From: Antedon bifida
Lineage: Eukaryota > Echinodermata > Crinoidea > Comatulida > Antedonidae
Length of the DNA: 64,000 bases
Direction of reading: 5' to 3'
Assembly (NCBI GenBank): GCA_963402885.1
Contig: OY727094.1
Span: 13,394,501 to 13,458,500 of the forward strand
Each line of letters starts with the position of its first letter. The first letter of the stretch is position 1. The notes below the pieces were generated by a model. That model did not search any database. It saw only the letters and a list, made by a program, of their open reading frames with translations, and had not been told where the DNA came from. A program made the position numbers and the translations under genes. Below are positions 29,246-64,000 of the stretch, in pieces.

Positions 29246-29306
29246 AATAATAAAGATTTTATACAATAACAATAGGTGATCATTTTATTCTAAATGATCA
29301 CCTAAA
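29246..29306 (-). mobile_element. Solo family-3 5' head
   Basis: Second copy of the 5' hairpin (29275-29304) plus TTGTTATTGTATAAAATC, ending where the inserted element begins. It belongs with the headless body at 26132-27660. Confidence 0.75.
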
Positions 29307-32971: not shown

Positions 32972-33041
32972 TTAGTTATCCGCTTGGTAGAGCGGATAAC
33001 TCCTTGTTATTGTATGGGATCAATATTTTTTTTCTGTATTA
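32972..33041 (+). mobile_element. Solo family-1 head H1
   Basis: TTAGTTATCCGC, loop TTGGTAGA, GCGGATAACT, then TTGTTATTGTATGGGATC and a T tract, broken at CTGTATTA by the next head. First junction with host DNA (CAAAGTGTTTA on its left). Loop and tail most resemble the solitary copy at 9167-10750. Its body should lie beyond the window. Confidence 0.75.
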
Positions 33042-33102
33042 TTAGTTATCCGCATTCAGCGGATAACTCCTTGTAACTGTCCTGTTTCATCATCTTTTTT
33101 TT
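33042..33102 (+). mobile_element. Solo family-1 head H2
   Basis: TTAGTTATCCGC, loop ATTCA, GCGGATAACT, then TTGTAACTGTCC and TTTCATCATC, broken in a T tract by H3. Body not in the window. Confidence 0.75.
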
Positions 33103-33168
33103 TTAGTTATCCGCTTAGTAGCGGATAAACTCCTTGTGATTGTATTGGATCAATATTTTTCTGTATTA
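33103..33168 (+). mobile_element. Solo family-1 head H3 (body at 37958)
   Basis: Loop TTAGTA. Tail TTGTGATTGTATTGGATC ending CTGTATTA. In the complete element at 48926 this tail continues TTCTTCTTTCTTTCC, exactly where the headless body at 37958 starts. One extra A in the second hairpin arm. Confidence 0.75.
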
Positions 33169-33231
33169 TTAGTTATCCGCATTCAGCGGATAACTCCTTG
33201 TAACTGTCCTGTTTCATCATCTTTTTTTTTT
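33169..33231 (+). mobile_element. Solo family-1 head H4 (body at 36415)
   Basis: Loop ATTCA, tail TTGTAACTGTCC...TTTCATCATC, then T tract. The complete relative at 53672 continues T(n)CTGTATTCTTC, matching the start of the body at 36415. Confidence 0.75.
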
Positions 33232-34824
33232 TTAGTTATCCGCTTAGTAGCGGATAACTCCTTGTTATTGTAGTGGATCAATATTTTTTTTTTTCTGTAT
33301 TATTCTTATTTCTTTCCCGTTTTTTTGTGGCTCACGTATCTCTAAAATGTGTAAACATAACATTTCATAACTTTTACAACATGTGGGCATGTACGTGAAG
33401 TTGTGCACCTCCTATTTTGAGTGACGTCAGAGTTGCGCAACGTGACTTACGCGCGATTTTATGATTTTTAATGATTGATCATAGCTTAAAAACCAAGCGT
33501 AATTTTTTTTTTACCCTTTATGAAAATTTAAGTCATATCAAGGGCAAACTTTTAGTTAACTAAAAATGGCGTGTTTTACAAGAAGTTACGCGCGCACGCG
33601 CATTTAAAATTTTAAAATGCGCAAAATTAATTTCTAATCAACTTTTTACGCCATTCATGACATTTTGCGCATGTCAAAATTTCCCACGCGCGCGAACAAT
33701 TTTACGCGTGCAGTGCGCACGCAGCATGAAAATCATGTTTTTTTCTATTAAATTGTGATTTTCCAGCCTTTCCTAGTCATTTTTAAAAAGATTGACATCA
33801 TTTCAAATTAAAATGACGTCATACGTACACGTTGATTTAGACCATTTGCATGCGTTTTAGTTGCAAAAGTTACAAAATATTGTCAAAATTATGCCTATTT
33901 TGAATCTATTATAGCTCCTCAGGATCAACCGTTACCCCCGAGTTTTTTAACTTAATATGTAAGCAGATATGTTGTAGATATGAATTCATGCAGAATTTTT
34001 TCCTTACGGATGTTGTGACGTCATCGTATGGCCACACAAATGTAAAAAATAGGATTTTTGTCTCTTTCGTTATTGCTCATCACATTCAATGGAGCACATC
34101 ACGCTTATCCGTCTTCCATTTTCTCCGAGATTTTAATATTATCTAGGTCAATCAACTATCTTTCGCATGAGTTAAAAATATTTTAATTTTTATAACGTCA
34201 TCATGCCTAAAAATTTAAATTATGTGGGTCATTAATTTTATCTTTACAGTAAATTTTAATCTGTTATAGCTCGTAAGAATAAAATGTGATAATCACAATT
34301 AAAACGTTTTCTGGAAGCTATTGGATTGTAGATACGAATTCATGTGAACATTTTGTCAATCACATGTAGTGACGTCATCATATGGCCAGTTGAAAAAAAA
34401 AAGTCGTATTTTCATATTTTGCGTCATAGTTCATCACATTTAAAAGAGCGCACATCTATATTTTACGTATCCAAATTTCTTCTACACGCTAATATGTTGT
34501 TGCTGAGATAATATCCTTCCGAAATTGGTATTTTAGTGTTTCATTTTGATACCGTCGCCATGTTAAAAAATGGAATAAATGGCGGGTCCCGTAATTTCAC
34601 CTATTCTACACTGTATGTAATATGTATACAGATTATACTGTTTATACTGTATATACTATATGACACAAAATTGACAGAATTCAGCACTAACAACATATCA
34701 TATTCTTCAGATCAGGTCATAATGCCATAATCTTTTTCTGGGTGCAAAATTCTAACGTATGACGTGCACGTGGCGTTTGTTGTGCGGATAACTAACTTGT
34801 CAAAGTGACGAGTTTCATGTCTAG
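33232..34824 (+). mobile_element. Complete family-1 element E1
   Basis: Head with loop TTAGTA, tail TTGTTATTGTAGTGGATC, full body, 3' GTGCGGATAACTAACT, hairpin and CTAG at 34821-34824. Four perfect TGACGTCA palindromes (33422, 33814, 34016, 34370). Near-identical to E16 (59979). The 64-codon ORF at 34536 recurs in every copy with the repeat and is not a gene. Confidence 0.85.
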
Positions 34825-36414
34825 TTAGTTATCCGCTTAGTAGCGGATAACTCCTTGTGATTGTAGTGGATCATTATTTTTTTTCTGTATTATTCTTATT
34901 TCTTTCCCGTTTTTTTGTGGCTCATGTATCTCTAAAATGTGTAAACATAATATTTCATAACTTTGACAACATGTGGGCATTTACGTGAAGTTGTGCACCT
35001 CCTATTTTGAATGACGTCAGAGTTGCGCAACGTGACTTACGCGCGATTTTATGATTTTTAATGATTGATCATAGCTTAAAAACCAAGCGTAATTTTTTTT
35101 TGACCCTTTATGAAAATTTAAGTCATATCAAGGGCAAACTTTTAGTTAACTAAAAATGGCGTGTTTTACAAGAAGCTACGCGTGCAGGCGCATTTAAAAT
35201 TTTAAAATGCGCAAAATTAATTTCTAATCAACTTTTTACGCCATTCATGACATTTTGCGCATGTCAAAATTTCCCCCGCGCGCGAACAATTTTACGCGTG
35301 CAGTGCGCACGCAGCATGAAAATCAGGTTTTTTTCTATTAAATTGTGATTTTCCAGCCTTTCCTAGTCATTTTTAAAAAGATTGACATCATTTCAAATTA
35401 AAATGACGTCATACGTACACGTTGATTTAGACCATTTGCATGCGTTTTAGTTGCAAAAGTTACAAAATATTGTCAAAATTATGCCTATTTTGAATCTATT
35501 ATAGCTCCTCAGGATCAACCGTTACCCCCGAGTTTTTTAACTTAATATGTAAGCAGATATGTTGTAGATATGAATTCATGCAGAATTTTTTCCTTACGGA
35601 TGTTGTGACGTCATCGTATGGCCACACAAATGTAAAAAATAGGATTTTTGTCTCTTTCGTTATTGCTCATCACATTCAATGGAGCGCATCACGCTTATCC
35701 GTCTTCCTTTTTCTCCGAGATTTTAATATTATCTAGGTCAATCAACTATCTTGCGCATGAGTTAAAAATATTTTAATTTTTATAACGTCATCATGCCTAA
35801 AAATTTAAATTACGTGGGTCATTAATTTTATTTTTACAGTAAATTTTACTCTGTTATAGCTCGTAAGAATAAAATGTGATAATCACGATTAAAACGTTTT
35901 CTGGAAGCTAGTGGATTGTAGATACGAATTCATGTGAACATTTTGCCAATCAGATGTAGTGACGTCATCATATGGCCAGTTGAATAAAAAAAATCGTATT
36001 TTCATATTTTGCGTCACAGTTCATCACATTTAAAAGAGCGCGCATCTATATTTTACGTATCCAAATTTCTTCTACACGCTAATATGTTGTTGCCGAGATA
36101 ATATCCTTCCGAAATTGTTATTTTAGTGTTTCATTTTGATACCGTCGCCATGTTAAAAAATGGAATAAATGGCGGGTCCCGTAATTTCACCTATTCTACA
36201 CTGTATGTAATATGTATACAGATTATACTGTTTATACTGTATATACTATATGACACAACATTGACAGAATTCAGATCTAACAACATATCATATTCTTCAG
36301 ATCAGGTCATAATGCCATAATTTTTTTCTCTGTGCAAAATTCTAACGTATGACGTGCACGTGGCGTTTGTCGTGCGGATAACTAACTCGTCAAAGTGACG
36401 AGTTTCATGTCTAG
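34825..36414 (+). mobile_element. Complete family-1 element E2
   Basis: Begins directly after E1's CTAG with TTAGTTATCCGC and ends CTAG at 36411-36414. Body very close to E1. Confidence 0.85.
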
Positions 36415-37957
36415 TTTTTTTTCTGTATTCTTCTTTTTTTCTGTCATTTTTGTGTCACGCGTAACTAAAAAACGTGTAAACATAACATTTTATAACTTTG
36501 TCAACATGTGGGCATTCACGTGAAGTTGTGCACCCGCTATTGTGAATGACGTCAGAGTTGCGCAACGTGACTTACGCGCGTTTTTATGAATTTCGCGTAT
36601 TTAACATAGATCGAAAACCATATAACATTTTAATTTGAAACTTAGAAAAAGTTTAAGTTATATCTTGCGCTAACTGACTGTGGAAAAAAAATGGCATCTT
36701 TCACACGAAGTTACGCGCGCACGCGCGTTTAAAATTTTAAAATGCGAAAAATCAATTTCTAATCAACTTTCTACGCGTTTTATGTCATTTTGAGCATGTC
36801 AAAAATTCCCACGCGCGCGCATATTTTTACGCGCGCGGTGCGCACGTAGCGTTGAAAACAATTTTTTTCGCGTGATTTATGTTTTTCCAGCCTTTTCTAG
36901 TAATTTTACCAACTTTTAAACAATTTCGACTTAAAATTAACGTCATACGAGCACGTCGAATTGGATAATTTACGTACGTTTTTGATGAAAAAGTTCAAAA
37001 ATTCCTTAAAATTTGTCAAAATTATACCTTTTTTAAAACAGTCGTAGTTTCTAAACTAAACGGTAAAAGTTATTTTTATTACGTATTCTGGAAGATGATG
37101 AGTTGTAGATATCGAATCATGCATCAATATTGCTAACAGGACATTGTGACGTCATCGTATGGCCATGCGAATATAAAATATAGGATTTTTGTATCTTTCG
37201 TCATAGAGTATCACATTTAATAGAGCGCATCTCCACTTATCCGTTTTTCATTTTAACCCAGATTTTGATATTGTCTAGGTCAATCAACTACCTTTCGCAT
37301 GGGTTAAAAATATTTTAATTTTTTTGACGTCATCATGTCTAAAATTGTAAATAACGTGGGTCACTTATTTTCATCTTTACAGTAACTTTCAATCTGTTAT
37401 AGCTCATCAGAATAAAAAGCGGTAATCATGATTAAAACGTTTTCTGGAAGCTATTGGATTGTAGATACGAATTCATGTAAACATTTTGCCAATCGGATGT
37501 TGTGACGTCATCATATGGCCAGTTGAATAAAAAAAGTTGTATTTTCATATTTTGCGTAATAGTTCATCACATTTAAAAGGGCGCGCATCTATATTTTACG
37601 TATTCAAATTTCTTCTACACGGTAATATGTTGTTGCTGAGATAATATCCTTCCGAAATTATTATTTTAGTGTTTCATTTTGATACCGTCGCCATGTTAAA
37701 AAATGGAATAAATGGCGGGTCCCGTAATTTCACCTATTCTACACTGTATGTAATATGTATACAGATTATACTGTTTATACTGTATATACTATATGACACA
37801 AAATTGACAGAATTCAGCACTAACAACATATCATATTCTTCAGATCAGGTCATAATGCCATAATCTTTTTCTGTGTGCAAAATTCTAACGTATGACGTGC
37901 ACATGGCGTTTGTCGTGCGGATAACTAACTCGTCAAAGTGACGAGTTTCATGTCTAG
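36415..37957 (+). mobile_element. Headless family-1 body E3
   Basis: Starts in a T tract then CTGTATTCTTC with no 5' hairpin, ends CTAG at 37954-37957. Body closely matches E12 (53672), whose head is of the H4 type. Confidence 0.8.
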
Positions 37958-39485
37958 TTCTTCTTTCTTTCCTTCCTTTTTGTGAGGAGCGTTTCTCTAA
38001 AATGGGTAAACATAACATTTCATAACTTTGTCAACACATGGACATTTACGTGAAGTTGTGCACCTCCTATTTTGAATGACGTCAGAGTTGCGCAACGTGA
38101 CTTACGCGCGATTTTATGATTTTTTATGATTGATCATAGCTTAAAAACCAAGCGTAATTTTTTTTTACCCTTTATGAAAATTTAAGTCATTTCAAGGGCA
38201 AACTTTTAGTTAACTAAAAATGGCGTGTTTTACAAGAAGTTACGCGCGCACGCGCATTTAAAATTTTAAAATGCGCAAAATTAATTTCTAATCAACTTTT
38301 TACGCCATTCATGACATTTTGCGCATGTCAAAATTTCCCGCGCGCGCGAACAATTTTACGCGTGCAGTGCGTACGCAGCATGAAAATCATGTTTTTTTCT
38401 ATTAAATTGTGATTTTCCAGCCTTTCCTAGTCATTTTTAAAAAGATTGACATCATTTCAAATTAAAATGACGTCATACGTACACGTTGATTTAGACCATT
38501 TGCATGCGTTTTAGTTGCAAAAGTTACAAAATATTGTCAAAATTATGCCTATTTTGAATCTATTATAGCTCCTCAGGATCAACCGTTACCCCCAAGTTTT
38601 TTAACTTAATATGTAAGCAGATATGTTGTAGATATGAATTCATGCAGAATTTTTTGTGCATTTTTTGCATGTTGTGACGTCATCGTATGGCCACACAAAT
38701 GTAAAAAATAGGATTTTTGTCTCTTTCGTTATTGCTCATCACATTCAATGGAGCGCATCACGCTTATCCGTCTTCCATTTTCTCCGAGATTTTAATATTA
38801 TCTAGGTCAATCAATTTTCTTTCGCATGAGTTAAAAATATTTTAATTTTTATAACGTCATCATGCCTAAAAATTTAAATTACGTGGGTCATTAATTTTAT
38901 CTTTACAGTAAATTTTAATCTGTTATAGCTCATAAGAATAAAATGTGATAATCACGATTAAAACGTTTTCTGGAAGCTATTGGATTGTAGATACGAATTC
39001 ATGTGAACATTTTGTCAATCAGATGTTGTGACGTCATCATATGACAAGTTTATTTAAAAAGGTCAAATTTTCATATTTTGCGTAATAGTTCATCACATTT
39101 AAAAGGGTGCGCATCTATATTTTATGTATTCAAATTTCTTCTACACGTTAATATGTTGTTCCTGAGATAATTTCCTTCTGAAATTGCTATCCAAGTGTTT
39201 CATTTTGATACCGTCGCCATGTTAAAAATTGGAATAAATGGCGGGTCCCGTAATTTCACCTATTCTACACTGTATGTAATATGTATACAGATTATACTGT
39301 TTGCATGTATATGCTATATGACACAAAATTGACAGAATTCAGCACTAACAGCTTATCATATTCTTCAGTTCTTGTCATAATGCCATAATCTTTATCTGTG
39401 TGCAATATTCCAACGTATGATGTGAACGTGGCGTTTGTCGTGGTGCGGATAACTAACTCGTCAAAGAGACGAGTTTCATGTCTAG
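37958..39485 (+). mobile_element. Headless family-1 body E4
   Basis: Starts TTCTTCTTTCTTTCC, ends CTAG at 39482-39485. Same subtype as E9 and E15. The 3' hairpin has one substitution in its loop side (TCAAAGAGACGA). Confidence 0.8.
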
Positions 39486-39556
39486 TTAGTTATCCGCTTA
39501 GTAGCGGATAACTACTTGTGATTGTAGTGGATCAATATTTTTTTTTTTCTGTATTA
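39486..39556 (+). mobile_element. Solo family-1 head H5
   Basis: Loop TTAGTA, tail TTGTGATTGTAGTGGATC and T tract, ends CTGTATTA at the next head. The body may be E18 (63103), but the join is not decisive. Confidence 0.7.
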
Positions 39557-39607
39557 TTAGTTATCCGCATAGTAGCGGATAACTCCTTGTAATCGTCCTG
39601 TTACTTT
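39557..39607 (+). mobile_element. Solo family-1 head H6 (body probably at 56796)
   Basis: Loop ATAGTA, tail TTGTAATCGTCC then GTTACTTTT, interrupted by a family-2 element. The next unmatched family-1 body in nesting order is at 56796. Confidence 0.65.
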
Positions 39608-41202
39608 TTGGTTATCCGCAACTTAGTTGCAGGATAACCCATGTGATTGTAAATATCTTTTTCTTCATCTTCTTTGTTATTCTTCTTTCTTTCCCGGATT
39701 TTTGTGTGTCGCATATCCCCTATTGCTTGTGAACGTAACTTTGTATAACTTTGTCAAATGATTGGCCTGCAGCTGTAGATGTGCAAGAAACTTCGTTATA
39801 TGACGTTAGAGTCGCGCAGCGTAAGTTACGCGCGATTTTATGAATTTCAATGATTGATCATAGATTATAAACCAAAAGTCATTTTGTATTGACACTTGGT
39901 GAAAATTTAAGTCATATCATGGGAAAACTTTCTATGGATTAAAAATAGCATGTTTCACAAGAAGTTACGCGCGCACGCGCATTTAAAATTTCAAAATGCG
40001 CAAAATTAATTTCTAATCAACTTTCTACGCTGATCATGACATTTTGAGCATGTCAAAAATTCCCACGCGCGCGAAAAAAATTACGCGTAAGGTGCGCACG
40101 GAGCATGAAAATCATGTGTTTTTTTCTTGAATTAAGATTTTACAGTCTTTCCTAGTCATTTTAAAAAAGATTGACATCATTTCAAATTAAAATGACGTCA
40201 TACAAACACGTTGATTGAGACCATTTTGCGCGCGTTTTAGTTGCAAAAGTGACAACATATTGTCAAAATTATGCCTATTTTTAACCTTCTATAGCTCCTC
40301 CGGATCATCCATGACCCCCAATTTTTTTAATTTAATATGTAAGCAGATATGTTGTAGATATGAATTCATGCAGAATCTTTACCCCTCGAATGTTATGACG
40401 TCATCGTATGGCCACACGAATGTAAAATATAGGATTTTTTACTCTTTCGTTATTGCTCATCACATTAAATAGAGCGCATCTCGCTTATACGTATTCCATT
40501 TCCACAGATATTTTAATACTCTCTAGGTCAATCAACTATCTTTCGCATGAGTTAAAAATATTTTAATTTTTATGACGTCATCATGTATAAAAAAGTAAAT
40601 AACGTGGGTCCCCTATTTTCATCTTTACAGTAAATTTCAATCTGTTATAGCTCGTTAGAATAAAAAGTGATAATCATGATTAAAACGTTTTCTGGAAGCT
40701 ATTGGATTGTAGATACGAATGTATGTGAATATTTTGCCAATCAGATGTTGTGACGTCATCATATGGCCAGTTGAATTCAAAAAGTCATATTTTCATCTCT
40801 TGCGTAAAAGTTAATTGCGTTTAAACGAGAGCGCATCTCACTGTTACGTACCCAAAATTCTTCAAATTTGTTTTAATGTAATTATTTAGATAATTATCTT
40901 CTAAAATTGTTATCTTTATATGTCAATTTGATGATGTCATCGTGTTAATAATTGGATTTAGAAGATGGGTCTCGTAATTTCGTCTATGCTACACTGTATA
41001 TAACATAATACAGTGTATTCTGTAAATACTGTAATTAATATGCTGTATGCTACAAAATAGGTACAATTCAGCACTGTAAACATATTTAATTCATGTCATA
41101 GGATGGCATAATAATTGTCGGCGTTCATATATTTTAAACGTATGTGCATGATGCGTTTGCGCGGATAACCCGAACTCGTCAAAGTGACGAGTTCAAATCT
41201 AG
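39608..41202 (+). mobile_element. Complete family-2 element E5
   Basis: Head TTGGTTATCCGC, loop, GCAGGATAACCC (one inserted base), tail ATGTGATTGTAAATATC. 3' end GCGCGGATAACCCGA, hairpin ACTCGTCAAAGTGACGAGT, TCAAATCTAG (41199-41202). The inverted pair is GGTTATCCGC/GCGGATAACC, differing from family 1 (AGTTATCCGC/GCGGATAACT) at a matched position. Confidence 0.85.
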
Positions 41203-42794
41203 TTGGTTATCCGCAACTTAGTTGCGGATAACCCATGTGATTGTAAATATCTTTTTTTTCATCTTCATCTTCTTTGTTATTCTTCTTTCTTTCCCGGATT
41301 TTTGTGCGTCGCATATCCCCTATTGCTTGTGAATATATCTTTTGTATAACTTTGTCATTATATGGACATTTACCTGAAGTTGTGCACCTCCATATTTTTA
41401 ATGACGTTAGAGTCGCGCAGCGTAAGTTACGCGCGATTTTATGAATTTCAATGATTGATCATAGATTATAAACCAAAAGTCATTTTGTTTTGACACTTAG
41501 TGAAAATTTAAGTCATATCAAGGGCAAACTTTCTATGGATTAAAAATGACATGTTTCACAAGAAGTTACGCGCGCACGCGCATTTAAAATTAAAAAATGC
41601 GCAAAATTAATTTCTAATCAACTTTCTACGCTGATCATGACAATTTAAAAATGTCAAAAATTCCCACGCGCGCGAAAAAAATTACGCGTAAGGTGCGCAC
41701 GGAGCATGAAAATCATGTGTTTTTCTCTTGAATTGTGATTTTACAGCCTTTCCTAGTCATTTTAAAAAAGATTGACATAATTTCCAATTAAAATGATGTC
41801 ATACGAGCACGTTGATTTAGACCATTTGCGCGCGCTTTAGTTGCAAAAGTGACAAAATTTTGTCAAAATTATGCCTATTTTGAATCTATTATAGCTCCTC
41901 AGGATCAACCGTTACCTCCAATTTTTTTAATTTAATATAGAAGCAGATATGTTGTAGATAAGAATTCATGCAGAATCTTTACCCCTCGGATGTCATGACG
42001 TCATCGTATGGCCACACGAATGTAAAATATTGGATTTTTGACTGTTTCGTTATTGCTCATTACATTAAATAGAGCGCATCTCGCTTATACGTATTCCATT
42101 TCCTCATATATTTTAATACTGTCTAGGTCAATCAACTATCTTTCGCATGAGTTAAAAATATTTTAATTTTTATGACGTCATCATGTCTAAAAATGTAAAT
42201 AACGTGGGTCACCTATTTTCATCTTTACAGTAAATTTCAATCTGTTATAACTCGTCAGAATAAAAAGTGATAATCATGATTAAAACGTTTTCTGGAAGCT
42301 ATTGGATTGTAGATACAAATTCATGTGAATATTTTGCCAAACAGATGTTGTGACGTCATCATATGGCCAGTTGAATTCAAAAAGTCATATTTTCATCTCT
42401 TGCGTAAAAGTTCATTGCATTTAAACGAGAGCGCATCTCACTTTTACGTGCTCAAAATTCTTCAAATTTGTATTAATGTAATTATTTAGATAATTATCTT
42501 CAAAAATTGTTATCTTTATATGTCAATTTGATGACGTCATCTTGTTAATAATTGGATTTAAAAGATGGGTCTCGTAATTTCGTCTATGCTACACTGTATA
42601 TAACATACAGTGTATTCTGTAAATACTGTAATATGCTGTATGCTACAAAATAGGTACAATTCAGCACTTTAAACATACTTAATTCATGTCAACGGATGGC
42701 ATAATAATTGTCGAAGTTCATATAGTTTAAAGTATGTGCATGTTGCGTTTGCGCGGATAACCCGAACTCGTCAAAGTGACGAGTTCAAATCTAG
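41203..42794 (+). mobile_element. Complete family-2 element E6
   Basis: Head TTGGTTATCCGC...GCGGATAACCCATG, body, CTAG at 42791-42794. Duplicated as E6' (44083). Confidence 0.85.
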
Positions 42795-42868
42795 TTGGTT
42801 ATCCGCAACTTAGTTGCGGATAACCCATGTGATTGTAAATATCTTTTTTTTCATCTTCATCTTCTTTG
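42795..42868 (+). mobile_element. Solo family-2 head H7
   Basis: Family-2 hairpin and tail to ATCTTCTTTG, interrupted by a family-1 head. In the intact element at 41203 the same tail continues TTATTCTTCTTTC. Confidence 0.75.
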
Positions 42869-43366
42869 TTAGTTATCCGCACTATGGCGGATAACTCCTT
42901 GTAACTGTCCTGTTTCATAATCTTATTTTTTTTTTTTTCTGTATTATTCTTCTTTCTTTCTGTCATTTTTGTGCAGAGCGTATCTCTAAAACGTGTAAAG
43001 TTAACATTTTATAACTTTGTCAACATATGGGCAATCACGTGAAGTTGTGCTTTCCTATAATTGAATGACGTCAGAGTTGCGCAACATGACTTACGCGCGT
43101 TTTTATGAATTTCGCGTATTTAACATAGATCGAAAACCATATAACAATTTAAATTGAAACTTAGCAAAAGTCTAATTTATATCGTGCGCTAACTTTTTGT
43201 GCACTAAAAATGACATGTTTTACACGAAGTTACGCGCGCACACGCGTTTAAAATTTTACAATGCGAAAAATCAATTTCTAATCAACTTTCTACGCGTTTC
43301 ATGTCATTTTGAGCATGTCAAAAATTCCCACACGTGCGCAAATTTTTACGCGCGTGGTGCACACGT
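42869..43366 (+). mobile_element. Family-1 element E7, cut by duplication breakpoint
   Basis: Head with loop ACTATG, uninterrupted T tract 42926-42938, and the first third of the body. It stops at the breakpoint in the CGCGTG-rich region. Its full counterpart is E7' (head 45748, body 47394). Because the tract is intact here, it is the empty-site version of the E8 insertion. Confidence 0.8.
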
Positions 43367-44082
43367 ATACGTATTCCATTTCCACAGATATTTTAATACT
43401 CTCTAGGTCAATCAACTATCTTTCGCATGAGTTAAAAATATTTTAATTTTTATGACGTCATCATGTATAAAAAAGTAAATAACGTGGGTCCCCTATTTTC
43501 ATCTTTACAGTAAATTTCAATCTGTTATAGCTCGTTAGAATAAAAAGTGATAATCATGATTAAAACGTTTTCTGGAAGCTATTGGATTGTAGATACGAAT
43601 GTATGTGAATATTTTGCCAATCAGATGTTGTGACGTCATCATATGGCCAGTTGAATTCAAAAAGTCATATTTTCATCTCTTGCGTAAAAGTTAATTGCGT
43701 TTAAACGAGAGCGCATCTCACTGTTACGTACCCAAAATTCTTCAAATTTGTTTTAATGTAATTATTTAGATAATTATCTTCTAAAATTGTTATCTTTATA
43801 TGTCAATTTGATGATGTCATCGTGTTAATAATTGGATTTAGAAGATGGGTCTCGTAATTTCGTCTATGCTACACTGTATATAACATAATACAGTGTATTC
43901 TGTAAATACTGTAATTAATATGCTGTATGCTACAAAATAGGTACAATTCAGCACTGTAAACATATTTAATTCATGTCATAGGATGGCATAATAATTGTCG
44001 GCGTTCATATATTTTAAACGTATGTGCATGATGCGTTTGCGCGGATAACCCGAACTCGTCAAAGTGACGAGTTCAAATCTAG
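43367..44082 (+). mobile_element. Family-2 3' part (duplicate of E5)
   Basis: 3' 716 bp of E5, duplicated, ending CTAG at 44079-44082. Confidence 0.8.
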
Positions 44083-45673: not shown

Positions 45674-45747
45674 TTGGTTATCCGCAACTTAGTTGCGGAT
45701 AACCCATGTGATTGTAAATATCTTTTTTTTCATCTTCATCTTCTTTG
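45674..45747 (+). mobile_element. Solo family-2 head H7' (body at 55277)
   Basis: Duplicate of H7. The expected continuation TTATTCTTCTTTC is found after the CTAG at 55276. Confidence 0.75.
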
Positions 45748-45813
45748 TTAGTTATCCGCACTATGGCGGATAACTCCTTGTAACTGTCCTGTTTCATAAT
45801 CTTTTTTTTTTTT
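45748..45813 (+). mobile_element. Family-1 head H8 (body at 47394)
   Basis: Duplicate of the E7 head, loop ACTATG, tail to the T tract, here interrupted by a family-2 element. Confidence 0.8.
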
Positions 45814-52085: not shown

Positions 52086-53671
52086 TTAGTTATCCGCATT
52101 CAGCGGATAACTCCTTGGAACTGTCCTGTTTCATCTTTTTTTTTTCTGTATTCTTCTTTCTTTCCGTCATTTTTGTGCAGAGCGTATCTCTAAAACGTGT
52201 ACAGTTAACATTCCATAACTTTGTCAACATATGGACATTCACGTGAAGTTGTGCACCTTTTATTGTGAATGACGTCAGAGTTGCGCAACGTGACTTACGC
52301 GCGTTTTTACGTTTTTCGCGTATTTAACATAGATCGAAAACCATATAACAATTTCAAATGAAACTTAGCAAAAGTTTAATTTATATCATGCGCTAACTTT
52401 CTGTGGACACAAAATGACATGTTTCACACGAAATTACGCGCGCACGCGCGTTTAAAATTTCAAATTGCGAAAAATCAATTACTAATCAACTTTCTACGCG
52501 TTTCATGTCATTTTAAGCATGTCAAAAATTCCCAGGCGCGCGCAATTTTTTTACGCATGCGTGCGCACGTAGCGCAAAAAAACTTTTTTTTTCGCGTGAT
52601 TTATGTTTTTCCAGCCTTTTTCTAGTAATTTTACAAACTTTTAAACAATTTCGACTTAAAATCACGTCATACGGGCACGTAGAATTGGATAATTTTCGCG
52701 AGTTTTTGATGAAAAAGTTAAAAAATTCGTCAAAATTTGTCAAAATTATGCCTTTTTTTAAACAGTCGTAATTTCTAAACTGGACGGTCAACTTTTTGTG
52801 GATGACATATTCTTGAAGTTGATGAGTTGTAGATATCGGATCATGTATTAATATGGTTAACCGGACATTGTGACGTCATCGTATGGCCACGCGAATATAA
52901 AATTTAGGATTTTTGTATCTTTCTTCATAGCTCATCACATTTAATAGAGCGCATCTCTACTTATCCGTTTTCCATTTTCACCCCGATTTTGATACTGTCT
53001 AGGTCAATCAACTATCTTTCGCATGAGTTAAAAATATTTTAATTTTTATGACGTCATCATGTCTAAAAATGTAAATAACCTTGGTCACATATTTTCATCT
53101 TTACAGTAAATTTTAATCTGTTATAGCTCGTCAGAATAAAAAGTGATAATCATGATTACAACGTTTTCTGGAAGCTATTGGATTGTAGATACGAATTCAT
53201 GTAAACATTTTGCCAATCGGATGTTGTGACGTCATCATATGGCCAGCTGAATAAAAAAAGTCGTATTTTCATATTTTGCGTAATAGTTCATCACATTTAA
53301 AAGAGCGCGCATCAATATTTTACGTATTTAAATTTCTTCTACACATTAATATGTGGTTGCTGATATAATTCCTTCCGAATTTGCTATCTTAGTGTTTCAT
53401 TTTGATACCGTCGCCATGTTAAAAATTGAAATAAATAGCGGGTCCCGTAATTTCACCTATTCTACACTGTATGTGATATGTATACAGATTATACTGTGTA
53501 TACTATATGACACAAAATATACAGCATTCAGCACTAACAACACATCATATTCTTCAGTTCAGGTAATAATGCCATAATCTTTTTCTGTGTGCAATATTCC
53601 AACGTATGACGTGCATGTGGCGTTTGTCGTGCGGATAACTAACTCGTCAAAGTGACGAGTTTCATGTCTAG
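52086..53671 (+). mobile_element. Complete family-1 element E11
   Basis: Head loop ATTCA, tail TTGGAACTGTCC, T tract. CTAG 53668-53671. Confidence 0.85.
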
Positions 53672-55276
53672 TTAGTTATCCGCATTCAGCGGATAACTCC
53701 TTGTAACTGTCCTGTTTCATCATCTTTTTTTTTTTTTTTTTTCTGTATTCTTCTTTCTTTCTGTCATTTTTGTGTCATGCGTAACTCAAAAACGTGTAAA
53801 CATAACATTTTATAACTTTGTCAACATGTGGGCATTCACGTGAAGTTGTGCACCCGCTATTGTGAATGACGTCAGAGTTGCGCAACGTGACTTACGCGCG
53901 TTTTTATGAATTTCGCGTATTTAACATAGATCGAAAACCATATAACATTTTAATTTGAAACTTAGAAAAAGTTTAAGTTATATCTTGCGCTAACTGACTG
54001 TGGGAAAAAATGGCATCTTTCACACGAAGTTACGCGCGCACGCGCGTTTAAAATTTTAAAATGCGAAAAATCAATTTCTAATCAACTTTCTACGCGTTTT
54101 ATGTCATTTTGAGCATGTCAAAAATTCCCACGCGCGCGCATATTTTTACGCGTGCGGTGCGCACGTAGCGTTGAAAACAATTTTTTTCGCGTGATTTATG
54201 TTTTTCCAGCCTTTTCTAGTAATTTTACCAACTTTTAAACAATTTCGACTTAAAATTAACGTCATACGAGCACGTCGAATTGGATAATTTACGTACGTTT
54301 TTTATGAAAAAGTTCAAAAATTCCTTAAAATTTGTCAAAATTATACCTTTTTTAAAACAGTCGTAGTTTCTAAACTAAACGGTAAAAGTTATTTTTATTA
54401 CGTATTCTGGAAGATGATGAGTTGTAGATATCGTATCATGCATCAATATTGCTAACAGGACATTGTGACGTCATCGTATGGCCATGCGAATATAAAATAT
54501 AGGATTTTTGTATCTTTCGTCATAGAGTATCACATTTAATAGAGCGCATCTCCACTTATCCGTTTTTCATTTTAACCCAGATTTTGATATTGTCCGGGTC
54601 AATCAACTACCTTTTGCATGGGTTAAAAATATTTTCATTTTTTTGACGTCATCATGTCTAAAAATGTAAATAACGTGGGTCACTTATTTTCATCTTTACA
54701 GTAACTTTCAATCTGTTATAGCTCATCAGAATAAAAAGCGGTAATCATGATTAAAACGTTTTCTGGAAGCTATTGGATTGTAGATACGAATTCATGTAAA
54801 CATTTTGCCAATCGGATGTTGTGACGTCATCATATGGCCAGTTGATTAAAAAAAGTCGTATTTTCATATTTTGCGTAATAGTTCATCACATTTAAAAGGG
54901 CGCGCATCTATATTTTACGTATTCAAATTTCTTCTACACGGTAATATGTTGTTGCTGAGATAATATCCTTCCGAAATTATTATTTTAGTGTTTCATTTTG
55001 ATACCGTCGCCATGTTAAAAAATGGAATAAATGGCGGGTCCCGTAATTTCACCTATTCTACACTGTATGTAATATGTATACAGATTATACTGTTTATACT
55101 GTATATACTATATGACACAAAATTGACAGAATTCAGCACTAACAACATATCATATTCTTCAGATCAGGTCATAATGCCATAATCTTTTTCTGTGTGCAAA
55201 ATTCTAACGTATGACGTGCACATGGCGTTTGTCGTGCGGATAACTAACTCGTCAAAGTGACGAGTTTCATGTCTAG
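53672..55276 (+). mobile_element. Complete family-1 element E12
   Basis: Head loop ATTCA with an 18-T tract then CTGTATTCTTC. CTAG 55273-55276. Close twin of headless E3, but with different neighbours, so the two are separate insertions rather than one duplicated block. Confidence 0.85.
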
Positions 55277-56795
55277 TTATTCTTCTTTCTTTCCCGGATT
55301 TTTGTGCGTCGCATATCCCCTATTGCTTGTGAATATATCTTTTGTATAACTTTGTCATTATATGGACATTTACCTGAAGTTGTGCACCTCCATATTTTTA
55401 ATGACGTTAGAATCGCGCAGCGTAAGTTACGCGCGATTTTATGAATTTCAATGATTGATCATAGATTATAAACCAAAAGTCATTTTGTTTTGACACTTAG
55501 TGAAAATTTAATTCATATCAAGTGCAAACTTTCTATGGATTAAAAATGACATGTTTCACAAGAAGTTACGCGCGCACGCGCATTTAAAATTTAAAAATGC
55601 GCAAAATTAATTTCTGATCAACTTTCTACGCTGATCATGACAATTTAAACATGTCAAAAATTCCCACGTGCGCGAAAAAAATTACGCGTAAGGTGCGCAC
55701 GGAGCATGAAAATCATGTGTTTTTTTCTTGAATTATGATTTTACAGCCTTTCTTAGTCATTTTAAAAAAGATTTACATCATTTCAAATTAAAATGACGTC
55801 ATACGAACACGTTGATTTAGACCATTTGCGCGCCATTTAGTTGCAAAAGTGACAAAATTTTGTCAAAATTATGCCTATTTTGAATCTATTATAGCTCCTC
55901 AGGATCAACCGTTACCCCCAATTTTTTTAATTTAATATAGAAGCAGATATGTTGTAGATATGAATTCATGCAGAATCTTTACCCCTCGGATGTTATGACG
56001 TCATCGTATGGCCACACGAATGTAAAATATTGGATTTTTGACTGTTTCGTTATTGCTCATTACATTAAATAGAGCGCATCTCGCTTATACGTATTCCATT
56101 TCCTCATATATTTTAATACTGTCTAGGTCAATCAACTATCTTTCGCATGAGTTAAAAATATTTTAATTTTTATGACGTCATCATGTCTAAAAATGTAAAT
56201 AACGTGTGTCACCTATTTTCATCTTTACAGTAAATTTCAATCTGTTATAACTCGTCAGAATAAAAAATGATAATCATGATTAAAACGTTTTCTGGAAGCT
56301 ATTGGATTGTAGATACAGATTCATGTGAATATTTTGCCAAACAGATGTTGTGACGTCATCATATGGCCAGTTGAATTCAAAAAGTCATATTTTCATCTCT
56401 TGCGTAAAAGTTCATTGCATTTAAACGAGAGCGCATCTCACTTTTACGTGCTCAAAATTCTTCAAATTTGTATTAATGTAATTATTTAGATAATTATCTT
56501 CAAAAATTGTTATCTTTATATGTCAATTTGATGACGTCATCTTGTTAATAATTGGATTTAAAAGATGGGTCTCGAAATTTCGTCTATGCTGCACTGTATA
56601 TAACATACAATGTATTCTGTAAATACTGTAATATGCTGTATGCTACAAAATAGGTACAATTCAGCACTGTAAACATATTTAATTCATGTCATAAGATGGT
56701 ATGATAATTGTCGGCGTTCATATATTTTAAACGTATGTGCATGTTGCGTTTGCGCGGATAACCCGAACTCGTCAAAGTGACGAGTTCAAATCTAG
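55277..56795 (+). mobile_element. Headless family-2 body E13 (head H7')
   Basis: Starts TTATTCTTCTTTCTTTCC, the exact sequence missing after H7'. CTAG 56792-56795. Confidence 0.8.
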
Positions 56796-58330
56796 TTTTC
56801 TGTATTATTCTTGGATCCTTCCTTCCTTTTTGTGAGTCGCGTTTCTCTAAAATGTGTAAACATAACATTTCATAACTTTGACAACATATGGGCATTTACG
56901 TGAAGTTGTGCACCTCCTATTTTTGAATGACGTCATAGTTGCGCAACGTGACTTACGCGCAATTTTATGAATTTCAATGATTGATTATAGATTAAAAACC
57001 AAAAGTCATTTAGTATTGACACTTTGACAACATTTAAGTCATATCAGGGGCAAACTTTCTACGGATTAAAAATGGCATGTTTCACAAGAAGTTACGCGCG
57101 CACGCGCATTTAAAATTTCAAAATGCGCAAAATTAATTTCTAATCAACTTTTTATGCGTTTCTTGTCATTTTGAGCATGTCAAAAATTCCCACCGGCGCG
57201 CAATTTTTTACGCACGCGGTGCGCACGTAGCGTTAAAAACATATTTTTTTCTCTTGAATTATATTTTTCAAGTCTTTCCTAGTAATTTTGAAAACAATTT
57301 AGACCTTTTCCAGTTTAAATAACGGCATACGAACACGTTGAATTAGACAATTCGTGCGCGTTTTTTATGAAAAAGCTTAAAAAATCGTCAAAATTATGTC
57401 TTTTTTTAAACAGTCATAGTTTCTAAAGTAAACCGTGAACCGTTTATTTTTATTACAAAATCTAGAAGTTGATGAGTTGTAGATATCGGATCATGCATCG
57501 ATAAGGCTAAAAAAACATTGTGACGTCATCGTATGGCCACACGAATGTAAAATATAGGATTTTTGTCTCTTTCGTTATTGCTCATCACATTCAATGGAGC
57601 GCATCACGCTTATCTGTATTCCTTTTTCTCCTAAATTTATATATTGTGTAGGTCAATCAACTTTCTTTAGCATGAGATAAAAATATTTTAATTTTTATGA
57701 CGTCATCATGCCTAAAAATTTTAATTACGAGAGTCATTAATTTCATCTTTACAGTAAATTTTAATCTGTAATAGCTCGTAAGAATAAAATGTGATAATCA
57801 CGATTAAAACGTTTTCTGGAAGCTATTGGATTGTAGATACGAATTCATGTAAACATTTTGCCAATCGGATGTTGTGACGTCATCATATGGCCAGTTGAAT
57901 AAAAAAAGTCGTATTTTCATATTTTGCGTAATAGTTCATCACATTTAAAAGGGTGCGCATCTATATTTTACGTATTCAAATTTCTTCTACACGTTAATAT
58001 GTTGTTCCTGAGATAATTTCCTCCAGAAATTGCTATTTAAGTGTTTCATTTTGATACCGTTGCCATGTTAAAAATTGGAATAAATGGCGAGTCCCGTAAT
58101 TTCACCTATTCTACACTGTATGTAATATGTATACAGATTATACTCTTTGCATGTATATACTATATGACACAAATTGACAGAATTCAGCACTAACAGCATA
58201 TCATATTCTTCAGTTCTTGTCATAATGCCATAATCTTTATCTGTGTGCAATATTCCAACGTATGACGTGCACGTGGCGTTTGTCGTTGTGCGGATAACTA
58301 ACTCGTCAAAGTGACGAGTTTCATGTCTAG
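56796..58330 (+). mobile_element. Headless family-1 body E14
   Basis: Starts TTTTCTGTATTATTC then TTGGATCCTTCC. Its body is mosaic: the first ~700 bp resemble the solitary 9167 copy, the rest resembles E9/E10. CTAG 58327-58330. Probably belongs to H6. Confidence 0.75.
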
Positions 58331-58389
58331 TTGGTTATCCGCAACTTAGTTGCGGATAACCCATGTGATTGTAAATATCTTTTTTTTCA
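58331..58389 (+). mobile_element. Solo family-2 head H9 (body at 61572)
   Basis: TTGGTTATCCGC hairpin, tail to TTTTTTTTCAT, interrupted by E15. The matching continuation CTTCTTCTTTG starts after the CTAG at 61571. Confidence 0.75.
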
Positions 58390-59978
58390 TTAGTTATCCG
58401 CTTAGTAGCGGATAACTCCTTGTGATTGTATTGGATCAATATTTTTCTGTATTATTCTTCTTTCTTTCCTTCCTTTTTGTGAGGAGCGTTTCTCTAAAAT
58501 GGGTAAACATAACATTTCATAACTTTGTCAACACATGGGCATTTACGTGAAGTTGTGCACCTCCTATTTTGAATGACGTCAGAGTTGCGCAACGTCACTT
58601 ACGCGCGATTTTATGATTTTTTATGATTGATCATAGCTTAAAAACCAAGCGTAATTTTTTTTTTACCCTTTATGAAAATTTAAGTCATATCAAGGGCAAA
58701 CTTTTAGTTAACTAAAAATGGCGTGTTTTACAAGAAGTTACGCGCGCATGCGCATTTAAAATTTTAAAATGCGCAAAATTAATTTCTAATCAACTTTTTA
58801 CGCCATTCATGACATTTTGCGCATGTCAAAATTTCCCGCGCGCGCGAACAATTTTACACGTGCAGTGCGCACGCAGCATGAAAATCATGTTTTTTTCTAT
58901 TAAATTGTGATTTTCCAGCCTTTTCTAGTCATTTTTAAAAAGATTGACATCATTTCAAATTAAAATGACGTCATACGTACACGTTGATTTAGACCATTTG
59001 CATGCGTTTTAGTTGCAAAAGTTACAAAATATTGTCAAAATTATGCCTATTTTGAATCTATTATAGCTCCTCAGGATCAACCGTTACCCCCGAGTTTTTT
59101 AACTTAATATGTAAGCAGATATGTTGTAGATATGAATTCATGCAGAATTTTTTCCTTACGGATGTTGTGACGTCATCGTATGGCCACACAAATGTAAAAA
59201 ATAGGATTTTTGTCTCTTTCGTTATTGCTCATCACATTCAATGGAGCGCATCACGCTTATCCGTCTTCCATTTTCTCCGAGATTTTAATATTATCTAGGT
59301 CAATCAATTTTCTTTCGCATGAGTTAAAAATATTTTAATTTTTATAACGTCATCATGCCTAAAAATTTAAATTACGTGGGTCATTAATTTTATCTTTACA
59401 GTAAATTTTAATCTGTTATAGCTCGTAAGAATAAAATGTGATAATCACAATTAAAACGTTTTCTGGAAGCTATTGGATTGTAGATACGAATTCATGTGAA
59501 CATTTTGTCAATCAGATGTTGTGACGTCATCATATGACAAGTTTAATTAAAAAGGTCAAATTTTCATATTTTGCGTAATAGTTCATCACATTTAAAAGGG
59601 TGCGCATCTATATTTTATGTATTCAAATTTCTTCTACACGTTAATATGTTGTTCCTGAGATAATTTCCTTCTGAAATTGCTATCCAAGTGTTTCATTTTG
59701 ATACCGTCGCCATGTTAAAAATTGGAATAAATGGCGGGTCCCGTAATTTCACCTATTCTACACTGTATGTAATATGTATACAGATTATACTGTTTGCATG
59801 TATATGCTATATGACACAAAATTGACAGAATTCAGCACTAACAGCATATCATATTCTTCAGTTCTTGTCATAATGCCATAATCTTTATCTGTGTGCAATA
59901 TTCCAACGTATGATGTGAACGTGGCGTTTGTCGTGGTGCGGATAACTAACTCGTCAAAGTGACGAGTTTCATGTCTAG
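58390..59978 (+). mobile_element. Complete family-1 element E15
   Basis: Same subtype as E9 and E4. Head loop TTAGTA. CTAG 59975-59978. Confidence 0.85.
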
Positions 59979-61571
59979 TTAGTTATCCGCTTAGTAGCGG
60001 ATAACTCCTTGTTATTGTAGTGGATCAATATTTTTTTTTTTCTGTATTATTCTTATTTCTTTCCCGTTTTTTTGTGGCTCACGTATCTCTAAAATGTGTA
60101 AACATAACATTTCATAACTTTTACAACATGTGGGCATTTACGTGAAGTTGTGCACCTCCTATTTTGAGTGACGTCAGAGTTGCGCAACGTGACTTACGCG
60201 CGATTTTATGATTTTTAATGATTGATTATAGCTTAAAAACCAAGCGTAATTTTTTTTTTACCCTTTATGAAAATTTAAGTCATATCAAGGGCAAACTTTT
60301 AGTTAACTAAAAATGGCGTGTTTTACAAGAAGTTACGCGCGCACGCGCATTTAAAATTTTAAAATGCGCAAAATTAATTTCTAATCAACTTTTTACGCCA
60401 TTCATGACATTTTGCGCATGTCAAAATTTCCCACGCGCGCGAACAATTTTACGCGTGCAGTGCGCACGCAGCATGAAAATCATGTTTTTTTCTATTAAAT
60501 TGTGATTTTCCAGCCTTTCCTAGTCATTTTTAAAAAGATTGACATCATTTCAAATTAAAATGACGTCATACGTACACGTTGATTTAGACCATTTGCATGC
60601 GTTTTAGTTGCAAAAGTTACAAAATATTGTCAAAATTATGCCTATTTTGAATCTATTATAGCTCCTCAGGATCAACCGTTACCCCCGAGTTTTTTAACTT
60701 AATATGTAAGCAGATATGTTGTAGATATGAATTCATGCAGAATTTTTTCCTTACGGATGTTGTGACGTCATCGTATGGCCACACAAATGCAAAAAATAGG
60801 ATTTTTGTCTCTTTCGTTATTGCTCATCACATTCAATGGAGCGCATTACGCTTATCCGTCTTCCATTTTCTCCGAGATTTTAATATTATCTAGGTCAATC
60901 AACTATCTTTCGCATGAGTTAAAAATATTTTGATTTTTATAACGTCATCATGCCTAAAAATTTAAATTACGGGGGTCATTAATTTTATCTTTACAGTAAA
61001 TTTTAATCTGTTATAGCTCATAAGAATAAAATGTGATAATCACGATTAAAACGTTTTCTGGAAGCTATTGGATTGTAGATACGAATTCATGTGAACATTT
61101 TGCCAATCAGATGTAGTGACGTCATCATATGGCCAGTTGAATAAAAAAAGTCGTATTTTCATATTTTGCGTCATAGTTCATCACATTTAAAAGAGCGCGC
61201 ATCTATATTTTACGTATCCAAATTTCTTCTACACGCTAATATGTTGTTGCTGAGATAATATCCTTCCGAAATTGTTATTTTAGTGTTTCATTTTGATACA
61301 GTCGCCATGTTAAAAAATGGAATAAATGGCGGGTCCCGTAATTTCACCTATTCTACACTGTATGTAATATGTATACAGATTATACTGTTTATACTGTATA
61401 TACTATATGACACAAAATTGACAGAATTCAGCACTAACAACATATCATATTCTTCAGATCAGGTCATAATGCCATAATCTTTTTCTGTGTGCAAAATTCC
61501 AACGTATGACGTGCACGTGGCGTTTGTCGTGCGGATAACTAACTCGTCAAAGTGACGAGTTTCATGTCTAG
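59979..61571 (+). mobile_element. Complete family-1 element E16
   Basis: Near-identical to E1, head included. CTAG 61568-61571. Confidence 0.85.
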
Positions 61572-63102
61572 TCTTCTTCTTTGTTATTCTTCTTTCTTTC
61601 CCGGATTTTTGTGCGTCGCATATCCCCTATTGCTTGTGAATATATCTTTTGTATAACTTTGTCATTATATGGACATTTACCTGAAGTTGTGCACCTCCAT
61701 ATTTTTAATGACGTTAGAGTCGCGCAGCGTAAGTTACGCGCAATTTTATGAATTTCAATGATTGATCATAGATTATAAACCAAAAGTCATTTTGTATTGA
61801 CACTTGGTAAAAATTTAAGTCATATCAATGGCAAACTTTCTATGGATTAAAAATGACATGTTTCACAAGAAGTTACGCGCGCACGCGCATTTAAAATTTC
61901 AAAATGCGCAAAATTAATTTCTAATCAACTTTCTACGCTGATCATGACATTTTGAGCATGTCAAAAATTCCCACGCGCGCGAAAAAATTTACGCGTAAGG
62001 TGCGCACAGAGCATGAAAATCATGTGTTTTTTTCTTGAATTATGATTTTACAGCCTTTCTTAGTCATTTTAAAAAAGATTGACATAATTTCAAATTAAAA
62101 TGACGTCATACGAACACGTTGATTTAGACCATTTGCGCGCGTTTTAGTTGCAAAAGTGACAACATATTGTCAAAATTAAGCCTATTTTTAATCTATTATA
62201 GCTCCTCAGGATCATCCACGACCCCCAATTTTTTTAATTTAATATGTAAGCAGATATGTTGTAGATATGAATTCATGCAGAACCTTTACCACTCGGATGT
62301 TATGACGTCATCGTATGGCCACACGAATGTAAAATATAGGATTTTTTACTCTTTCCTTATTGCTCATCAAATTCAATAAAGCGCTTCTCGCTTATACGTA
62401 TTCCATTTCCCCCGAAATTTTAATATTGTCTACGTTAATCAACTATCTTTCGCATGAATTAAAAATACTTTAATTTTTATAACGTCATCATGTCTAAAAA
62501 CGTAAATAACGTGGGTCACTTATTTTCATCTTTACAGTAAATTTCAATCTGTTATAGCTCGTCAGAATAAAAAGTGATAATCATGATTAAAACGTTTTCT
62601 GGAAGCTATTGGATTGTAGATACGAATTGATGTGATTTTTTTGCCAATCAGATGTTGTGACGTCATCATATGGCCAGTTGAATTCAAAAAGTCATATTTT
62701 CATCTCTTGCGTAAAAGTTCATTGCGTTTAAACGAGAGCGCATCTCACTTTTACGTGCCCAAAATTCTTCAAATTTGTTTTAATGTAATTTTTTAGATAA
62801 TTATCTTCTAAAATTGTTATCTTTATATGTCAATTTGATGACGTCATCCTGTTAAAAATTGGATTTAAAAGATGGGTCTCGTAATTTTGTCTATGCTACA
62901 CTGTATATAACATATACAGTTTATTCTGTAAAATACTGTAATATGGTGTATGCTACATAATAGGTACAATTCAGCACTGTAAACATATTTATTTCATGTC
63001 ATAGGATGGCATAATAATTGTCGAGGTTCATATAGTTAAGTATGTGCATGTTGCGTTTGCGCGGATAACCCGAACTCGTCAAAGTGACGAGTTCAAATCT
63101 AG
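61572..63102 (+). mobile_element. Headless family-2 body E17 (head H9)
   Basis: Starts TCTTCTTCTTTGTTATTC, family-2 body, GCGCGGATAACCCGA, hairpin, CTAG 63099-63102. Confidence 0.8.
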
Positions 63103-64000
63103 TTTTTTTTTTTCTTATTTCTTTCTCCCTCATTTTTGTGTCTCACGTATCTCAAAAACTTGTAAACATAACATTTCATAACTTTGTCAACATATGGGCA
63201 TTTACGTGAAGTTGTGCACCTCCTATTTTTGAATGACGTCAGAGTTGCGCAACGTGACTTACGCGCGATTTTATGATTTTTAATGATTGATCATAGCTTA
63301 AAAACCAAGCGTAATTTTTTTTTTACCCTTTATGAAAATTTAAGTCATATCAAGGGCAAACTTTTAGTTAACTAAAAATGGCGTGTTTTACAAGAAGTTA
63401 CGCGCGCACGCGCATTTAAAATTTTAAAATGCGCAAAATTAATTTCTAATCAACTTTTTACGCCATTCATGACATTTTGCGCATGTCAAAATTTCCCGCG
63501 CGCGTGAACAATTTTACGCGTGCAGTGCGCATGCAGCATGAACATCATGTTTTTTTCTATTAAATTGTGATTTTCCAGCCTTTCCTAGTCATTTTTAAAA
63601 AGATTGACATCATTTCAAATTAAAATGACGTCATACGTACACGTTGATTTAGACCATTTGCATGCGTTTTAGTTGCAAAAGTTACAAAATATTGTCAAAA
63701 TTATGCCTATTTTGAATCTATTATAGCTCCTCAGGATCAACCGTTACCCCCGAGTTTTTTAACTTAATATGTAAGCAGATATGATGTAGATATGAATTCA
63801 TGCAGAATTTTTTCCTTACGGATGTTGTGACGTCATCGTATGGCCACACAAATGTAAAAAATAGGATTTTTGTCTCTTTCGTTATTGCTCATCACATTCA
63901 ATGGAGCGCATCACGCTTATCCGTCTTCCATTTTCTCCGAGATTTTAATATTATCTAGGTCAATCAACTATCTTTCGCATGAGTTAAAAATATTTTAATT
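63103..64000 (+). mobile_element. Headless family-1 body E18, cut by window edge
   Basis: Starts in an 11-T tract then CTTATTTCTTTC, with the family-1 body of the E1 subtype. The 3' end lies outside the window. Candidate owners of its head are H5, H2 or H1. Confidence 0.75.

Follow-up and report, generated by a model that had tools for sequence, protein, structure and literature searches.

The window analysed here is a stretch of 64,000 nucleotides of AT-rich, eukaryote-like DNA from the crinoid Antedon bifida (contig OY727094.1, positions 13,394,501 to 13,458,500 of the forward strand), and from position 32974 to its end it is occupied by an array of related Helitron-like elements, all lying in a single orientation. 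We counted 23 five-prime ends (heads) and 19 three-prime ends (tails) in this array, which consists of 12 intact elements of 1577-1603 nt (about 1.59 kb), one recombinant of 1212 nt, ten solo heads of 51-74 nt, six complete headless bodies of 1519-1543 nt, all with intact 3' ends, and one further headless body cut at the window edge. Pairwise body identity in the array ranges from 74.5 to 99.8%, and the longest stop-to-stop run is 117 codons. Heads, intact elements, solo heads and headless bodies had already been distinguished in a preliminary description of this DNA, and our segmentation found them where it had placed them. That description proposed that a solo head and one later headless body are the two parts of a resident element split by an insertion, the heads being closed in last-in-first-out (LIFO) order. 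The parts of the array are as follows, together with a solitary element elsewhere in the window; the GG type is a variant of the terminal repeat that is described below.

32974..33043 (+): H1, solo head of 70 nt, outermost, nearest to the solitary element 10748-9167, without a LIFO body in the window
33044..33104 (+): H2, solo head of 61 nt, CATCATC-T-tract type, without a LIFO body in the window
33105..33170 (+): H3, solo head of 66 nt, partner body 37958-39485
33171..33233 (+): H4, solo head of 63 nt, partner body 36415-37957, ties with H2
33234..34824 (+): intact element within H4
34827..36414 (+): intact element adjoining the previous one via CTAG-TT-AGTT
36415..37957 (+): headless body that closes H4
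37958..39485 (+): headless body that closes H3, the join being element 48928 plus two extra T
39488..39558 (+): H5, solo head of 71 nt, whose LIFO partner would be 63103 (ambiguous)
39559..39609 (+): H6, solo head of 51 nt, LIFO partner 56796 (break position fits, subtype discordant)
39610..41202 (+): intact GG-type element within H6
41205..42794 (+): intact GG-type element, duplicated as 44085-45673 (99.8% identical)
42797..42870 (+): H7, left-hand copy of the duplicated head, never closed
42871..44082 (+): recombinant in which an H8-type head with the uninterrupted start of a body passes at about 43366 into a GG-type 3' part; the head provides the paralogous empty site
44085..45673 (+): duplicate of element 41205-42794
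45676..45749 (+): H7', solo head of 74 nt, partner 55277-56795 (join score 1.00), ties with its duplicate H7
45750..45815 (+): H8', solo head of 66 nt, partner body 47394-48925
45816..47393 (+): intact GG-type element that splits the T tract of H8'
47394..48925 (+): headless body that closes H8'
48928..50504 (+): intact element
50507..52085 (+): intact element
52088..53671 (+): intact element
53674..55276 (+): intact element
55277..56795 (+): headless GG-type body that closes H7'
56796..58330 (+): headless body, LIFO partner H6, subtype nearest the solitary element 10748-9167 (97.5%)
58333..58391 (+): H9, solo GG head of 59 nt, partner body 61572-63102
58392..59978 (+): intact element within H9
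59981..61571 (+): intact element
61572..63102 (+): headless GG-type body that closes H9
63103..64000 (+): headless body truncated by the end of the window, its partner being either H5 or H2 (ambiguous)
9167..10748 (-): solitary element of the main family, intact and sited in non-self DNA

Each element starts with a strong hairpin, AGTTATCCGC-loop-GCGGATAACT or a GG version opening with GGTTATCCGC, and this 5' motif recurs inverted directly upstream of the 3' hairpin ACTCGTCA-AAG-TGACGAGT, which is followed by 6-7 nt and then CTAG. This second hairpin starts about 30 nt from the 3' end of the element, and in 19/19 tails GCGGATAAC(TA/CCG) precedes the ACTCGTCAAAGTGACGAGT-type hairpin. Six terminal hairpins fold with z from -2.8 to -8.5, the DNA folds of the 5' hairpin in three head types having z of -8.5, -7.1 and -6.1. 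Head and tail have one and the same terminal-repeat class in all 12 intact elements and also in the solitary one; only the recombinant is mixed. Tail-head junctions read CTAG-TT-[A/G]GTT in 12/12 cases, and T flanks the element on both sides at junctions. A canonical Helitron1 starts with 5'-TC and has no 5' hairpin, whereas these elements start with (TT)AGTT or (TT)GGTT and a strong 5' hairpin; the 3' end does follow the canonical form, a CTRR end with a hairpin at 10-12 nt from it (here 6-7 nt before CTAG). Judged from this anatomy, the elements have Helitron2/Helentron (HINE) architecture with a CTRR-like 3' end, and they are probably non-coding. Rfam at the gathering threshold gave 0 matches, and searching with the conserved 3' hairpin plus TCTAG gave 0 relatives in a viral contig collection; a single genome-contig match to the same motif, in an acidobacterial metagenome-assembled genome, was taken as a chance match by rough estimate. 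There is also a weak repeat inside the element body (33899-33928 / 34254-34283, 30 nt, 80%, 355 nt apart), perhaps an old internal duplication.

The preliminary description had listed five pairs of head and body, namely 33171 with 36415, 33105 with 37958, 45750 with 47394, 45676 with 55277, and 58333 with 61572. Under the break-position test, the last bases of the head and the first bases of the body have to flank a single point of an intact relative, one on each side; head subtype scores were computed with T runs collapsed. In all five pairs head and body fit each other by break position and by terminal-repeat class and, when heads and bodies are compared separately, also by subtype. Elements 48928 and 58392 both give head 33105 (H3) a score of 1.0, and body 37958 is 99.0% identical to the former; heads 33044 and 33171 score 1.0 to element 53674, to which body 36415 is 99.1% identical. 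For head 45750 (H8') the score of 1.0 is reached with 42871, and over 434 bp the start of body 47394 has 99.8% identity to the 42871 copy. Heads 42797 and 45676 score 1.0 with 44085, to which body 55277 is 97.8% identical; head 58333 is of the GG type and body 61572 is 94.8% identical to 44085. The joins of H3 (33105/37958) and H7' (45676/55277) are clean, each equal to the intact relative with two extra T only and thus free of any longer target duplication, and these two T could belong to either element or target, thus the joins do not fix the exact cut position.

One of these insertions can be compared with a paralogous empty site. The stretch 41205-42870 is repeated at 44085-45749 with an offset of about 2,880, and the elements it contains are 99.8% identical, which makes it a 2.88-kb tandem duplication. 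In the right copy the T tract (45750-45815) is split by the intact element 45816-47393, and the body resumes at 47394. In the left copy the H8 head continues into the body without an insert from 42871 to about 43366, its T tract being unbroken across 42871-42990 save for one A, and then switches, at an apparent 2-bp overlap (by eye), to the 3' part of a GG-type element. The resulting recombinant at 42871-44082, with an A-type head and a GG-type tail, lies at the joint of the duplication. We read the left copy as a paralogous pre-insertion site.

These findings bear on two other explanations of the array. Multi-headed elements could have been made once elsewhere by self-insertion and moved in as units, from the left-most 5' end to the first 3' end, as has been suggested for Helitron2 elements of Fusarium whose 5' termini are repeated (PMC5148889); heads and bodies would then not be partners in place. 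Such composite transposition could account for the heads that have no LIFO body (H1, H2), and perhaps for H5, but it predicts no matching downstream bodies, and five heads have bodies that match them in break point, terminal-repeat class and subtype; moreover, the empty site indicates that one insertion occurred in place. We consider composite transposition improbable. An assembly artefact, in which haplotypes or repeat copies were misjoined, is suggested by the length of the repetitive stretch and by the 99.8% identical duplicates, which differ by one insertion and could be two haplotypes. It is possible that the two copies are unmerged haplotypes, although this would not readily account for a joint that connects the interiors of two different elements where they are not homologous. 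Misjoining also fits poorly with head breaks confined to TT at 51-74 nt from the 5' end, and with the same architecture in another, smaller nest (below); we give it a very low probability.

The same duplication is one real event of the kind required if the order had arisen through slippage or unequal crossing-over within a satellite-like array, and H1-H2 and H3-H4 can be read as a 127-nt tandem repeat with 90% matches. However, the likeness of H1 to H3 is no more than 95%, which means that the head cluster did not arise by a recent, simple duplication, and crossing-over alone would not yield CTAG-preceded headless bodies whose start matches a distant head. In the comparison of neighbours (18/20 bodies, the recombinant and one duplicate omitted), adjacent bodies were 86.0% identical against 85.0 +/- 1.5% in 5,000 shuffled orders (p 0.24), which argues against satellite homogenisation and against aberrant rolling-circle amplification or insertion of a concatemer. 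The latter would leave many 5' ends and few 3' ends, and tandem arrays in which several 5' ends go with a single 3' end have been described (Xiong et al. 2016, as cited in a review, PMC12628747). Near-identical neighbours would be expected of a concatemer, but the closest adjacent pair outside the duplication is 97.7% identical, successive heads differ in subtype, and the six complete headless bodies have their 3' ends. The earlier statement that the pattern is not that of unequal crossing-over in a plain satellite is thus supported in that neighbours are no more alike than shuffled ones, with the reservation that one 2.88-kb tandem duplication did occur. Crossing-over as the source of the order seems to us highly improbable, and we find a concatemer scarcely credible.

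When duplicates are counted once, the array holds 20 elements, corresponding to one outer insertion (H1), nine head splits and ten insertions at element borders. All nine independent head splits are at TT, 51-74 nt from the first base after TT, and none of the 12 intact elements or six complete headless bodies is interrupted. In three elements that were counted, 192-218 TT steps lie beyond nt 90, with T runs of up to 10; if splits fell on TT at random, the 51-74 nt window would have p from 8e-13 to 6e-11 (three elements), values given for illustration only, the window having been picked post hoc. Five of the nine splits (H1, H3, H5, H7, H9) are at TT steps outside runs of at least 5 T, and T-run length alone is therefore insufficient to explain the site. 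Taken with the narrow window in the head and the intact bodies, these splits lead us to suspect the help of a protein at the 5' hairpin. Sites other than heads are used too, as seen in the solitary element, H1, the outer head of a second array and a truncated copy near 17709-18073. The nearest-relative identities of hosts and inserts overlap.

This second array, from a related family and on the opposite strand, is made of three parts:

29243..29303 (-): solo head of 61 nt
27661..29242 (-): intact element within that head
26132..27660 (-): headless body, 87% identical to the inserted element

Its family is 68-72% identical to element 33234 in the alignable parts and has a different hairpin, AGGTGATCATTT, with a matching 3' repeat. 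The layout of solo head, intact element and headless body from 29303 to 26132 is that of an independent nest of one level, split at 61 nt.

Taken together, these results suggest, with a probability of about 85%, that the array was built by repeated self-insertion of a non-autonomous rolling-circle transposon of Helitron2/Helentron type (HINE-like). A new copy would enter the T-rich spacer at a TT 51-74 nt in from the resident's 5' end, leaving a solo head and a headless body, or alternatively use the TT at the border of an element and so form a tandem pair, and within the array incoming copies would always take the same orientation. Nine independent insertions inside heads, up to ten at boundaries and one 2.88-kb tandem duplication would produce the 20 elements. 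The insertions would presumably be carried out by a RepHel (Helentron) protein acting in trans, and the narrow target window would reflect protein bound at the 5' hairpin of the resident plus local T-richness. Repeated insertion into the T-rich tract just inside resident 5' ends, as put forward in the preliminary description, is supported by the matched broken ends, the paralogous empty site and the second nest, but it covers only part of the events, since by our count 10/19 inferred insertions are at borders (CTAG-TT-head).

Several observations weigh against self-insertion in place or against the order that goes with it. No autonomous partner was seen, the boundary insertions are indistinguishable from the transposition of ready-made tandem pairs, and the join in the second nest lies in a diverged T-rich stretch, which locates the break less exactly than in the main array. 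Heads 33044 and 33171 can be distinguished by T count only, and 42797 and 45676 are a duplication pair; because of these ties, two of the five listed pairs were picked by order and not by sequence. H1 (32974) and H2 (33044) have no LIFO body inside the window. Body 56796 has a join score of 0.81 with H1 against 0.77 with H6 (39559), the head at the top of the stack, and it is 97.5% identical to the solitary element, whose head resembles H1 rather than H6. Body 63103 scores 0.83 with 33044 (H2) or 33171 (H4) against 0.79 with the top-of-stack H5 (39488); its first 100 nt or so are a mosaic opening with 11 T, about nine more than the LIFO join would predict. Among all complete assignments the best-scoring one is crossing.

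The strength of the order was examined by enumerating assignments in which each body is given any head that opens earlier (12,600 for the six complete bodies and 50,400 for all seven), with break classes assigned by hand and body 63103 excluded from the class comparison because its class is undecided. The break class under LIFO fits 6/6 complete headless bodies, a result achieved by 48/12,600 assignments, 8 of them non-crossing and 40 crossing. The class data alone are therefore insufficient to prove nesting, the rest being supplied by the empty site and the close subtype matches. Terminal-repeat class agrees in 6/6 LIFO pairs with complete bodies as well; on its own it is a weak discriminator (960/12,600 assignments). 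By join score, 28/50,400 assignments of all seven bodies are at or above LIFO, and the best-scoring ones match LIFO for the five listed pairs (with two ties) but not for 56796 and 63103. The claim that later-opened heads always close first was therefore overstated, as these two bodies, which the preliminary description did not list, score better with non-LIFO heads.

Pairing 56796 with H1 fits the subtype, but it needs a 14-nt overlap (by eye) and keeps H2, H5 and H6 open inside, and if nesting is kept it leaves 63103 outside every head. We lean towards 56796 closing H6, as LIFO has it, since the break position fits H6 and the H1 reading leaves 63103 headless under nesting. The partner of 63103 is ambiguous between H5 and H2, and the choice of H2 would leave H5 unclosed. 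Head 42797 (H7) never closes, which we attribute to the later tandem duplication and not to failed nesting. The three-level nest 45676 (or its duplicate), 45750 and 45816 is independent of choices based on order, whereas a second one, 33105, 33171 and 33234, relies on order to pick H4 over H2; if every LIFO pair is accepted the nest is seven levels deep. LIFO is in any case the necessary outcome of any nesting and no additional rule, and two of the seven closures are ambiguous.

Perhaps the 5' spacer of the resident is a dedicated landing site, where a transposase held at the hairpin steers new copies 51-74 nt downstream or onto the border, so that arrays grow inward, and this may be a clade-wide trait and a route from transposon to satellite. 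We put this forward tentatively, as a rather doubtful extension of repeated self-insertion; the clade-wide reading draws on the 61-nt head of the diverged family and on the repeated 5' termini of 31-85 nt in Fusarium Helitron2. If the nesting is correct, we would expect beyond 64000 the rest of 63103 with an AACTA-type tail, then a T-tract-start, 53674-like body closing H2, and further to the right a body that begins immediately after CTGTATTATT, resembles the solitary element 10748-9167 and closes H1. A chromosome free of the array would join the right flank to ...GTGTTTATT. Helentron-type elements are abundant in many invertebrates. The locus appears to log up to nineteen self-insertions with their order, strand, site and an empty-site control, and it yields concrete predictions on how targets are chosen, namely at TT, at a set distance from the 5' hairpin and with two T added. 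A further point is that it shows a way in which rolling-circle elements could assemble satellite-like arrays through insertion.

Apart from the second nest, the left arm of the window (1-32973) contains a 3' fragment of the main family at 17709-18073 (-), about 80% identical, with its 5' part gone and a shortened hairpin. Two repeat pairs were noted, 16284-16721 / 31683-32110 (438 bp, 92% identical) and the direct repeats 20699-20824 / 22061-22186 (126 bp, 99% identical). On the minus strand there is a single ankyrin-repeat-like stretch (Pfam PF00023, E 1.5e-08); Pfam was run on 3/144 open stretches of at least 48 aa in this arm, chosen by eye, and the other two of these three had no match.

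The array can be compared with several known systems, on the basis of parts of the papers cited. Non-autonomous Helentrons known as HINE or DINE-1 (Thomas et al. 2014, PMC4067079) are alike in their palindromic subterminal inverted repeats, 3' stem-loop and TT or T-rich target with at least 2 T on each side, and probably in their lack of coding capacity; clustered or tandem Helitrons are mentioned there, and in the sections considered a nested array of heads and bodies of this depth is not described. According to the same authors, biochemical work on the transposition of Helentron-type elements is still needed. Helitron2 (Bao and Jurka 2013, PMC3627910) shares the asymmetric terminal inverted repeat, the 5' hairpin, its recurrence just before the 3' hairpin and insertion after T, whereas the CTAG 3' end found here fits the CTRR rule of canonical Helitrons. 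The Cg_HINE elements of the Pacific oyster (PMC7492417) share the HINE layout and T-rich or TT insertion with no target duplication; they carry internal satellite-like repeats, unlike the present array, and the word 'nested' is absent from the main text of that paper. Plant centromeric Helitron arrays (Xiong et al. 2016, via PMC12628747) are tandem too and have many 5' and few 3' ends, but they are described as truncated rolling-circle products, while the differing subtypes and matched bodies here point to separate insertions. In transposable element dimers formed by insertion-site preference (McGurk and Barbash, via PMC12628747), that preference yields adjacent copies and possible satellite seeds; here the preferred site is also inside the element and not at the border only.

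The closest precedent is found in the Helitron2 elements FoHeli of Fusarium oxysporum, which have repeated short 5' termini (the first 31, 65, 73 or 85 nt) for which the authors consider self-insertion a possible origin, and of which one copy lies 2 bp upstream of the 5' end of another; a tandem trio in Metarhizium was explained in the same report either by rolling-circle replication or by two insertions that hit a 5' end (PMC5148889, in the part drawn on here). FoHeli differs in its target, TNAT and not TT, and its multi-headed forms are said to spread by transposition, whereas here the closing bodies are in place and the order is readable. The preliminary description had named no known example of such strict self-targeted nesting, while allowing that one might be in print. 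Self-insertion has this precedent in Fusarium, although we recognised no description of an equally deep and readable nest in the titles and abstracts searched, which were those of the open literature, with subscription papers mostly outside. Given the repeated Fusarium 5' termini of 31-85 nt and the clustered or tandem Helitrons already in print, we rate the array as an extreme and unusually well-recorded variant of a known self-insertion behaviour.

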